Shown here one piece after another: positions 6,873-24,151 of a DNA stretch of 27,172 nucleotides. Where the stretch lies: positions 1-27,172 of the IMG/VR virus record IMGVR_UViG_3300010397_000080; one strand, 5' to 3'. The first letter of the stretch is position 1. Every line of letters starts with the position of its first letter. The notes under the pieces were generated by a model. That model was not told where the DNA came from. It worked only from the letters and a program-made list of their open reading frames with translations, and ran no database searches. Position numbers and translations under genes: made by a program. This DNA comes from a virus.

Positions 6873-7364
6873 CTAGCTGGTCGGTTGCTCGCGGTGAATT
6901 GCGAGGTACTGAATGGCTGCGGACAGAACCCGCTCGTCTTCCCGCGCGTGCCCGACTAGGAGGTTGCAGGACTGACAGAGCAGGCCGCGCACACTTCCGG
7001 TCTCATGCGCGTGATCGACATAGAGGTTGGAGTAGTCGCCCGGCCGCATCCGTGGCAGATCGTCCTCATGCGTCCGGCAGATTGCGCAGCAGTAGTCCTG
7101 CGCCGCGCGGAGGGCGTCGAAGTCCTCCAACTCCATGCCGTAGTACCGGCGAAGGCGAATGCGGCGGGCCCGCTCTCTGGCCACGTCCGGGTCTAGCGCC
7201 GCCCGCCATGCCTGGACCTTCGCCTTGTGCTTCTCAGGGTTCCGGGCATAGTGCTCGCGCCACTTGGCTCGTGCGGCCTCCGGGTCGGCGGCGCGGATCG
7301 CGGCCATACGGACCCGGTTCGCCTCACGGGCCCTAGCTTTCGCTTCAGCGGAGACCGCGCCCAC
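6873..7364 (-). CDS. HNH endonuclease, endonuclease VII-like
   Basis: The 163-aa protein has a basic, helical N-terminus (about residues 1-75) suited to DNA binding, with a YARNPEKHKAKV segment. The nuclease core follows: CAIC (93-96), VDHAHETG (116-123) and a CQSCN cluster (130-134). This CxxC / DHxHxTG / CxxCN arrangement is the zinc-bound beta-beta-alpha core of the recombination endonuclease VII family; D117 and H118 are the expected catalytic positions. In phages such free-standing genes often act as homing endonucleases. It sits between tape measure and minor tail genes, an unexpected place for a DNA enzyme, in keeping with insertion. A GTG is preceded by AGGGGGAG. Confidence 0.85.
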   Translation of the reverse strand: MGAVSAEAKARAREANRVRMAAIRAADPEAARAKWREHYARNPEKHKAKVQAWRAALDPDVARERARRIRLRRYYGMELEDFDALRAAQDYCCAICRTHEDDLPRMRPGDYSNLYVDHAHETGSVRGLLCQSCNLLVGHAREDERVLSAAIQYLAIHREQPTS

Positions 7365-21509: not shown

Positions 21510-23039
21510 TCAGCCTCCCAGTCTCAGACGGGTCGTGCCACGGAAGAACGGCGGCGACGGAGCCATCGGGGCCGTCGCTGGCGGGACGATGACCTCCGGG
21601 GCGGGGCGGGCCGCGAAGCCGTGCAGGGCGTAGGTCAGAGCGACCAGCGGTGAGATGTCCACCGACTCGGCCCGCCGGTCCCACACGGTGCCCTCTTCGA
21701 CCCGGCGCGTCGCCGAACCAGCGACCGCCAGGGTCAGCGCCTGCGACGGGCGGACATGCAACCGACGGGCCGGCGTCTCGCCGTCGGCGGTCTGCGACGA
21801 CACGTGCTGGTGGAACAGGCCGTACGCGTGGGCCCGGTCGCGGGCCTTCATCTCGGTCAGTTCCTCGTAGACCGATGGCACCAACTCGAACTCGAGCTCC
21901 GGGATGAGCGAACCGCCGGCGCCGCCCGGGTTCACCACGACGCGGAAGGGCTTCCACTTCGCCACCAACGCCTTGACCCGCGCCACAACCCAGTCGGTAT
22001 GTGCGCGGTGGTCGATGATCTCGCCGTGCAGGTCCCCGTCCGCGCGCGGCCCGACCACCGCGATGGCCGCATGGGACCGGTCCGGGGTCACATCGATCGC
22101 CAGAATCAGCGGGGTCGTCGCCTGCGAGTCCGGGTCCTGCGCGGCCAGCCAGTCGGCCTCGGTGATGACGCCCCACGTCTCGCTGGGCATCAGCGGCCAG
22201 ATGCCCAGCCGCTCCCGGCCGAAGCCCTCATCCGTCATCGCCGCGCGTTCGCGCGCCACGAACTCCTCGGTGATGCGATACCCCATCGCCGGGTTCGTCT
22301 CAGCCCACACGTCGCGGTCGTCCAGGTCCGCGCCGGGCTTCGCTCCCCACTCGAACCAGCACAACGGGTCGCCCTCGACCGGCGGTGAAGCACCGCGCCG
22401 GCGCAGGTTGAACAGCGGCGCGGCCATCTCCCCGTCCAGCGGCGGCGAGGAGGTGTACCACATCTGCGGGTTCGGCCTGGCCGACATCGTCGGCATCAGC
22501 GCTTCGAGCTGCTCGTCGGTCAGCGCGAACGCCTCATCGAGGATCACCACGTCGGCCGGGAAACCGCGACCGGAGCCCTTCGTCCGGGCCATGAACCGCA
22601 AGGCCCGGCCGTCCTGCATCACGATGCCCTCAGTGCCGGGCGCCTTCGGATACGCCGCCACCTTGCGATGAAGGTCCGGCGTGCCGCGCACCAGTCGCTC
22701 GATGCGCCGGTAGTGGTCCATCGACGTCTTGAACTCGTGCGACGTGTGCAGGATGGACTCGCCGAACAGGAACAGCCCGGCCAGCTCGCGGGCCTCAAGG
22801 ATCGAACCCTTCCCGGACTGCCGGCTCACGATCAGGCCCACCTCGAACGAGGCCCACTTCCCGCCCGGGCGCTCGTACAGGCTCGCCACGAGGATGTCCT
22901 GCTGCCACGGGTCGAGGATCAGCCCTGCGCTCGCGGCCAGGTCGATGGCATCCTGACCGGCGCTTGACGCGGTGGTCGGGAACTTACTAACCCGCGGCTT
23001 GCGCGAGCCGAGCCTGGCGGCGGGCAGCAAGGTCGTCAC
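21510..23039 (-). CDS. terL: Terminase large subunit
   Basis: The 509-aa packaging motor has an ATPase domain with a Walker A-type loop VSRQSGKG (residues 71-78), Walker B VVILDEA (164-170) and a coupling motif YTSSP (195-199). The C-terminal nuclease half starts at LILAIDVTPDRSHAAI with the likely metal-binding Asp at 316. Phage terminases use ATP to drive DNA into proheads and cut it at genome ends. The GTG start at 23039 is set by a strong AAGGAGGGG (23055-23047) 9 bp upstream; it overlaps the preceding putative small terminase by 53 bp. Length is normal. It is followed by membrane protein, small protein and portal genes. Confidence 0.92.
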   Translation of the reverse strand: MTTLLPAARLGSRKPRVSKFPTTASSAGQDAIDLAASAGLILDPWQQDILVASLYERPGGKWASFEVGLIVSRQSGKGSILEARELAGLFLFGESILHTSHEFKTSMDHYRRIERLVRGTPDLHRKVAAYPKAPGTEGIVMQDGRALRFMARTKGSGRGFPADVVILDEAFALTDEQLEALMPTMSARPNPQMWYTSSPPLDGEMAAPLFNLRRRGASPPVEGDPLCWFEWGAKPGADLDDRDVWAETNPAMGYRITEEFVARERAAMTDEGFGRERLGIWPLMPSETWGVITEADWLAAQDPDSQATTPLILAIDVTPDRSHAAIAVVGPRADGDLHGEIIDHRAHTDWVVARVKALVAKWKPFRVVVNPGGAGGSLIPELEFELVPSVYEELTEMKARDRAHAYGLFHQHVSSQTADGETPARRLHVRPSQALTLAVAGSATRRVEEGTVWDRRAESVDISPLVALTYALHGFAARPAPEVIVPPATAPMAPSPPFFRGTTRLRLGG

Positions 23040-23283
23040 TAGTCGACCCCTCCTTGCCCGGAGCCATCGAGTTGAGTTCGGTCATCACGACGCGCAACTC
23101 CTTGACCAGCGCGACGAGCATCCGGCCGTCGCCCATGCCGCACACGCAGTGACATTCCTCTTTGTGCTTGTTCCACAAGGTGTCGCTGGTCTCGGCCGCC
23201 AGCCGGTCCCTGATGGCGCGCATCGACTCGATGAGGTCGCCGTCGGGGACGGCATCTTCGATGGATCTGGTCATGGCACCCAC
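22987..23283 (-). CDS. terS: Putative terminase small subunit
   Basis: The product is 98 aa from a GTG at 23283, or 95 aa from an ATG at 23274; no strong Shine-Dalgarno sequence decides. It is helical, with DLIESMRAIRDRLAAE, a Cys-containing turn (ECHCVCGMGD), a helix with LVALVKELRVVMTELN, and an Ala/Arg-rich end (DDLAARRQARLAQAAG). The LVKELR helix and the DDLAARRxAR end are seen in many small proteins before actinobacteriophage large terminases. Small terminases recognise the packaging site. It follows the motif-bearing intergenic region, as expected. It might instead be an accessory DNA-binding protein. Its 3' end overlaps the terL start. Confidence 0.62.
   Translation of the reverse strand: MGAMTRSIEDAVPDGDLIESMRAIRDRLAAETSDTLWNKHKEECHCVCGMGDGRMLVALVKELRVVMTELNSMAPGKEGSTSDDLAARRQARLAQAAG
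23047..23055 (-). promoter_or_regulatory. Strong ribosome binding site for terL
   Basis: AAGGAGGGG on the minus strand lies inside the putative small terminase gene and 9 bp before the GTG at 23039. It fixes the terL start and allows high, independent initiation in spite of the overlap. Confidence 0.75.
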
Positions 23284-23534
23284 TCACGCGCGTCGATCTA
23301 CCAGCGTGACGCTAAGTGATCATGCCTAGGGCGATTACTCAGCGTAAAAAAATGAAAGAGGGTCTGGGTCAGCCGGTGTCCGTTTTGTGGAGGGACATCG
23401 ACCCGGGGGGTGGTGACTGTCTATATGCGCAGGTCAGAGGCTTGCACATCGCCTCATGATTCACGGTCGAGCGAGCCCATGATCCCGATACGAAGCGCGC
23501 GCACTTAGCGTGACCTCACACTGATCACTCTGCG
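23284..23534. promoter_or_regulatory. Motif-rich intergenic region, candidate cos/pac or operator
   Basis: This is the longest gap in the late operon, 251 bp between the HNH gene and the small terminase. Copies of an ACGCTRAGTRA-like motif lie at 23309-23319 (plus), 23335-23345 (minus), 23501-23511 (minus) and, with two changes, 23525-23535 (minus, overlapping the HNH stop). Two copies are followed by TGATCA (23317-23322 and 23522-23527). AGCGTGACGCT at 23303-23313 is an 11-bp dyad. Near the middle is a C/G-rich run, ACCCGGGGGGTGG (23401-23413). No protein frame is convincing. A packaging site bound by terminase and HNH proteins is my preferred reading; an operator is the main alternative. 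Confidence 0.5.
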
Positions 23535-23535
23535 T
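23309..23535. repeat. Four dispersed ACGCTRAGTRA motifs
   Basis: The motif pairs are 26 bp apart (copies 1 and 2) and 24 bp apart (copies 3 and 4), and flank about 155 bp. Copy 1 reads TGACGCTAAGTGATCA on the plus strand; copy 4 reads AACGCAGAGTGATCAG on the minus strand, so the outermost copies face each other. Copy 2 is within TTACTCAGCGTAA, itself an imperfect dyad. Confidence 0.6.
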
Positions 23536-23843
23536 TACCAGTCACGGGATGCAGTAGCGATAGGTGCCTGCACATCCACGCCTATCTGACGTGCACCCAA
23601 CTCCTGGTTGCACTTACGCCCACACGTAGGACACCCACGCCACCCATGGATGGGGCTCAGGTTCGACCTCACCATGGCCAGCCAGGGAGCCCTGGACCTA
23701 GGGACGTTGTGGTTGACCTCGTCGTAGCCGCCATGGCCACACCACACGCAGTTCAGGCCCCATGCCCTGCTCTCGCGCAGTACCCGCGCCCGCATGCGTA
23801 GCCAGGGTCGACCCTTGCGCCCATGCCAGCGGGGCAGCGCCAT
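23535..23843 (-). CDS. Small HNH endonuclease next to the terminase genes
   Basis: The 102-aa protein has CVWC (residues 32-35), an N-H pair in DEVNHNVPRS (44-45) and CPTCGRKCN (71-79). This is the zinc-bound HNH layout with Asn-His in place of Asp-His at the core. A basic N-terminus (RWHGRKGRPWLRMRARVLR) suits DNA contact. In HK97 and related phages an HNH protein encoded beside the terminase genes is needed for DNA cleavage at cos, so this gene is probably a packaging factor and not a homing enzyme. The start is the ATG overlapping the upstream stop (TGATG); the longer frame back to 24164 is out-of-frame reading of the upstream gene. Confidence 0.82.
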   Translation of the reverse strand: MALPRWHGRKGRPWLRMRARVLRESRAWGLNCVWCGHGGYDEVNHNVPRSRAPWLAMVRSNLSPIHGWRGCPTCGRKCNQELGARQIGVDVQAPIATASRDW

Positions 23844-24151
23844 CAGACGACCGTGAACACGCCAGCGGGTTCGACGATGGTCTCCGGCGAGTGGACGACC
23901 TTGACCCACATCACCCACTGACCCACGGCCAGATCCCCGGCCGTGACGAGCCGTCGAGCCAGGTACGTCGTCGGCGTGGTGGTGGAGTCGGTCTCCCATG
24001 AGGCTGTGGAGAACCCGGTCGGTGCATCGCCGGGTCGAGCCCAGGCCACCGCGACCGTGTCGCCGCTGAGGTCGGCCCAGGCGCCGGAGATCTTCGCCGC
24101 GACCTTGGCCTTGACGTACTCCGTGGACAGGGCCGAGATGGACACGCTCAC
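23843..24151 (-). CDS. Small beta-rich virion-type protein
   Basis: The 102-aa product starts at a GTG that overlaps the upstream stop as GTGA; a longer frame from 24223 would overlap the upstream gene by 76 bp and is less likely. The sequence begins VSVSISALSTEYVKAKVAAK, has PTTYLARRLV and ends QWVMWVKVVHSPETIVEPAG. This 'YVxxxV...W.....YLAR.LV...L..G.Y.VWVKI...PE.PV...G.F.V' pattern is conserved in small proteins beside minor tail proteins of actinobacteriophages. The function is unknown; an Ig-like fold is plausible. Confidence 0.62.
   Translation of the reverse strand: MSVSISALSTEYVKAKVAAKISGAWADLSGDTVAVAWARPGDAPTGFSTASWETDSTTTPTTYLARRLVTAGDLAVGQWVMWVKVVHSPETIVEPAGVFTVV

Follow-up and report, generated by a model that had tools for sequence, protein, structure and literature searches.

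In phage lambda, the short elements cosB, cosN and cosQ are arranged around a fixed cut beside the terminase genes, and the cut leaves a 5' overhang. In HK97, cos lies within a run of genes that reads gp74 (an HNH protein), cos, gp1 (the small terminase, TerS) and gp2 (the large terminase, TerL). HK97 TerS binds from +15 to +29, in a site marked by an A-tract that must stay without G:C pairs and by a specific base pair at +21 (PMC11331095).

Here we analyze a locus of similar layout from an uncultured phage, in a stretch of 27,172 bp that we refer to as the window. With a probability of about 0.83, the gap between an HNH-like gene and TerS appears to be the cos region of an HK97-type packaging system in a phage of actinobacteria, the TerS/TerL/HNH mechanism included. 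Judged from sequence, the gap very probably holds the site where, for packaging, the phage DNA is cleaved into unit genomes. A first-pass annotation had placed a candidate packaging site between these two genes, a location now supported by the contig ends of relatives, a cut-site matrix and the HK97-like gene order.

Results

The late operon of the window lies on the minus strand and comprises the following genes around the gap:

23535..23843, minus strand: HNH-like gene encoding 102 aa, the partner upstream of the putative site
22987..23283, minus strand: TerS, the small terminase gene (98 aa if started at GTG, 95 aa if started at ATG 23274)
21510..23039, minus strand: large terminase gene TerL (509 aa)

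The gap (23284-23534) is bounded by the end of the HNH open reading frame at 23535 and by the start of TerS at 23283 (GTG) or 23274 (ATG); TerS in turn overlaps TerL. This order, HNH, gap, TerS and TerL, equals that of HK97, in whose record the HNH gene, the right end, TerS and TerL follow one another as in the window. In both phages the start of TerS is no more than 100 nt from the left end, which in the window is a predicted one. The lambda arrangement of short elements around a fixed cut is also similar, but unlike lambda the window has a partner gene for an HNH protein, and its predicted overhang is 3'. The same succession of HNH, junction and TerS is repeated in four other loci (L016, L044, L058 and L064). 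The HNH gene may stand before or after the site: we find both HNH, cos, TerS (window, L016, L059) and cos, HNH, TerS (L009, L025), and in Clark HNH genes flank the site on both sides.

TerL matches PHROG 9, terminase large subunit (E = 6e-64), and the HNH-like protein matches PHROG 144, HNH endonuclease (E = 5e-5), its relatives being likewise placed before cos. The PHROG for terminase small subunit, 1459, is matched by 11 of the 16 members of the TerS family, the window's own TerS matching only PHROG 6975, for which no function is annotated. No alignment was obtained between this TerS family and the TerS proteins of HK97 and Clark, a point of difference from HK97, and the structural model of the window TerS consists of helices only, at low to middling confidence (pLDDT 72). 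In the HNH-like protein the usual DH pair reads NH in the window and DL in L059, L061 and L063; because this pair varies, some members may have weakened catalytic activity or none. A second HNH-type gene, of the Endonuclease VII family (Pfam, E = 6e-19), lies between tail genes at 6873-7364.

The gap itself is a long non-coding stretch within the late operon, with an A/T content above that of its surroundings. A search of 22900-23900 against Rfam gave no match, no tRNA was found in the whole window, and comparison of the gap DNA with phage records gave no match longer than 28 nt, located around the start of the box region described below.

Relatives were drawn from viral and genome contigs, because the HNH protein had no match in the phage collection. 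When viral contigs were searched with TerL, L002-L008 were recovered, and five of these stop no more than 350 nt upstream of where TerL matches. Among 15 related contigs gathered through TerL or TerS only, seven (L002, L004, L006, L009, L014, L015 and L213) start 6-10 nt before a T/pyrimidine tract, which sits upstream of TerS, or upstream of HNH in L009. Two others (L013 and L016) continue through a junction of the type where L014 and L015 start, and two right-end contigs (L061 and L062) end at GGACCAC and GGATGAC, on the opposite side of such a junction. About 10 nt are absent between the right-end and left-end contigs, as would be expected if a 3' overhang were lost during library preparation; this length would fit the 10-nt 3' overhang of HK97-type packaging. 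Cultured actinophages follow the same rule in five of seven genomes, again ahead of the first packaging genes: the left end lies 6-7 nt before a T/pyrimidine tract in BaileyBlu, CallinAllBarbz, Saal and Faith1 and 9 nt before T8 in Clark, and no such tract is found at the left ends of Gaia and Rhodalysa. The window resembles Saal, Faith1, Clark and BaileyBlu in having its tract 6-10 nt inside the left end, here as predicted, and it shares with Lentzea, Streptomyces and Actinoplanes prophages a cut region like GACCCCGCGCCC.

The window record itself reads across the predicted site, and its putative genome end was placed from the relatives and from a two-part weight matrix, which scores GAC plus overhang and then a tract at variable distance. 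For training, read-through junctions were taken from 21 and then from 18 other loci, with the window excluded. Across both strands of the window (about 54,300 positions) its top place is the GAC at 23370-23368, with a score of 19.2 against 14.2 for the next, and such a maximum is attained anywhere in only 1.5% of random 27-kb sequences (n = 200). In leave-one-out trials the true site ranked first in 17 of 18 loci, all of which had been picked for showing the pattern. Because the best place is this GAC, the predicted cut on the late strand is GGCTGAC/CCAGACCC(TC)/TTTCATTTTTTT, just before a T7 tract:

23358..23370, minus strand: predicted cut region (cosN), GAC/CCAGACCC(TC), with a putative 3' overhang; relatives' contig ends lie at the homologous place
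23346..23352, minus strand: T7 tract, at about +8 to +14 counting from the predicted left end; it corresponds to the T/pyrimidine tract found 6-10 nt into most of the left ends examined

The first-pass annotation had described a C/G-rich centre with the two motif pairs around it. Such a stretch does exist, at about 23400-23410, but the predicted cut at 23358-23370 does not fall there.

The gap might instead be no cut site, but the start of headful (pac) packaging, or it might serve the terminase genes as their promoter or regulatory leader. Its length, non-coding character and higher A/T content would suit such a role, as would a record that reads straight across. We nevertheless consider this very improbable: the contig ends of relatives converge on a single base position, unlike the pattern of headful packaging, the peak of the cut-site matrix falls in the gap, and a promoter and terminator scan of the gap against a simple consensus, which misses some actinobacterial promoters, gave no match.

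Four copies of the motif ACGCTRAGTRA lie around the predicted cos site:

23525..23535, minus strand: motif A, ACGCAGAGTGA then TCA; one mismatch
23501..23511, minus strand: motif B, ACGCTAAGTGC; one mismatch
23335..23345, minus strand: motif C, ACGCTGAGTAA, candidate TerS site; exact
23309..23319, plus strand: motif D, ACGCTAAGTGA then TCA; exact

No further copy with fewer than two mismatches occurs elsewhere in the window. The motif scan bore out the first description of four motifs with facing outer copies: spacings within the two pairs are 26 and 24 bp, and the outer copies are oriented toward each other and each continue into TGATCA, forming part of an inverted repeat (23306-23322 and 23522-23538) that is 82% complementary. 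The best 11-mer family of the gap comprises four copies within two mismatches, with five mismatches summed. Dinucleotide shuffles of the gap (n = 1000) gave four copies in 0.9% of cases and never of matching quality; a first-order Markov null, which is cruder and looser, gave four copies in 5% of trials, and equally large families are common in GC-rich coding windows of the contig. The pattern is real, yet not striking on its own, and the motif count taken alone is moderate evidence.

Comparison across relatives singles out motif C. Among five close TerS relatives it recurs in L002 (at +18) and L009 (at +45) and partly in L004 (at +16), and it is absent from L011 and L213; recurrence of A, B and D was not seen, and at motif D only the adjoining CTAGGCATGATCAC is common to L004. 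A search of viral contigs with TTTTTTTACGCNGAGWNA gave 16 matches, one being the L002 contig again. In 32 other cos regions there were nine near matches to the motif against one for a reversed control, a weak excess. A similar-looking motif cluster in L112 was rejected, as no terminase of the window's family was found there.

Motif C comes immediately after the T7 tract and spans about +13 to +26 counted from the predicted left end, close to the position of the HK97 TerS site. Over the first 30 nt of the left end, a predicted one in the window, HK97 has an A/T tract together with a short sequence that is specifically required, and the window has such a tract together with the candidate motif; they differ in that the T7 tract of HK97 spans +24 to +30, whereas that of the window comes before the motif. 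On its position and recurrence we regard motif C as the best TerS-site candidate. The earlier proposal that the motifs bind terminase is plausible for this candidate copy alone, and the emphasis on all four did not hold, as they are not the core of the site: what relatives conserve is the cut region together with the T/pyrimidine tract and the two boxes upstream, with C recurring in some close TerS relatives. Where lambda-type cosB has several conserved TerS-binding repeats beside the cut, the window has four motifs of which one recurs. The TerS proteins of the close group (window, L002, L004, L009, L010, L011 and L213) contain an inserted Cys/His-rich HKEECHCVCGMGDG, which most other members are without. 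This insert may be a metal-binding DNA-reading element and could read a group-specific site.

Only motif C may matter, with A, B and D being chance or drifting copies. We lean against this reading while taking it seriously: relatives repeat C alone and the Markov null yields four copies in 5% of trials, but the dinucleotide shuffles rarely do and never at equal quality, and the 26- and 24-bp spacings are paired. A further alternative accepts the cos site as real and takes the four motifs to be operators, bound by a repressor or activator of the phage in the manner of the stoperators of cluster A mycobacteriophages. Those are asymmetric sites of 13-14 bp, concentrated close to the right cos end (PMC9934374). 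The lack of recurrence of A, B and D would fit this, and the early region, the expected place of a repressor gene, lies outside the window. Stoperators, however, occur in many copies genome-wide in a single orientation relative to transcription; in the 27-kb window, early region excluded, the motif is confined to the gap and occurs in both orientations, and L002 and L009 have motif C again at their left ends. We judge the operator explanation unlikely.

On the other side of the predicted cut lie two boxes:

23428..23445, minus strand: right-end box GCAAGCCTCTGACCTGCG, with core CCTCTGACCTGCG at 23428-23440
23377..23386, minus strand: box AAAACGGACA, just upstream of the predicted cut

The first is identical over 18 nt in the cos region of a Lentzea prophage (L048), and AAACGGACA, from the second, is also found before the cut in L016, L038, L044, L056 and L058. 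A 30-nt box query matched 878 of 50,697 phage records (704 from Mycobacterium, 73 from Gordonia, 46 from Streptomyces and 38 from Rhodococcus), against 17 for the reversed query. When an even sample of 60 records was counted by hand, the box lay within 150 nt of the right end (at 46-138 nt) in 41, cases that are not independent since many of the records are closely related; these boxes stand in either orientation and mostly outside annotated genes. Gaia, Saal and Faith1 have two to four copies around the genome ends. Where viral contigs have both the box and a TerL of the window's family, 24 of 27 cases place the box upstream of TerL, 15 of them within 1 kb. Right-end boxes are present in many cultured and integrated actinobacterial phage cos regions, as in the window; the window differs in combining one TCTGACCTGCG box with four ACGCTRAGTRA copies, which was not seen in the actinobacterial phages compared.

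The non-coding box GCCTCTGACCTGCGGAAACG was seen, sometimes in several copies, in the window, L037, L048, L073, L089, L109 and L117. An inverted pair, CCTCTGACCTGCGG...CCGCAGGTCAGAGG, occurs in L083, an imperfect palindrome in L237, and in L240 a second, inverted copy lies some 70 nt away; such pairs could be a hairpin or a dimer site. Several prophages (L020, L037, L040, L050 and L013) have a GATCATGG-like sequence just before the cut, mostly after a T run, and the window has GGATCATGGGC only farther upstream, at about 23474-23484.

The right-end box also occurs at mid-genome positions in the sampled phages, at 0-3 places per host genome, and in a primer at an integrase region (PMC5311408). 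Given these occurrences we dropped the idea that it is exclusive to cos sites, and it is not a sign of cos alone.

Discussion

The cut site proposed here is of an ordinary kind, and its short signals are common to many other phages. We suggest the following mechanism, in which gene order, the cut-region match, the ends of relatives and the recurrence of the boxes are observed, and from which we infer the cut, the overhang and the pairing of proteins with boxes. On concatemeric or circular DNA, TerS would bind just inside the future left end, at the T7 tract and ACGCTGAGTAA (23352-23335). It would then position TerL, which, with the help of the HNH protein, would cut at 23358-23370 and leave a short 3' overhang. 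Packaging would proceed through TerS, TerL and the remaining genome and stop at the next copy of the site, where the right-end boxes CCTCTGACCTGCG (23440-23428) and AAAACGGACA (23386-23377) are candidates for recognition in the terminal cut.

A wider reading is that many unrelated actinobacterial phage groups have a common cos-site grammar that includes the box CCTCTGACCTGCGG, read by one conserved factor (terminase, HNH or host protein) and undescribed before. We regard this as close to balanced, tending slightly against it. Our literature search, which covered few subscription papers, so that an earlier description is possible, did not find the box described as such a signal.

For an uncultured phage, these results provide a base-level, testable prediction of the genome ends, and they illustrate that the ends of metagenome contigs can map cos sites. 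The right-end box is a signal conserved among mycobacterial, Gordonia, Rhodococcus and Streptomyces phages, and it raises the question of which protein recognizes it. If the shared grammar is true, the genome ends of many prophages and metagenomic phages would be predictable from sequence alone.
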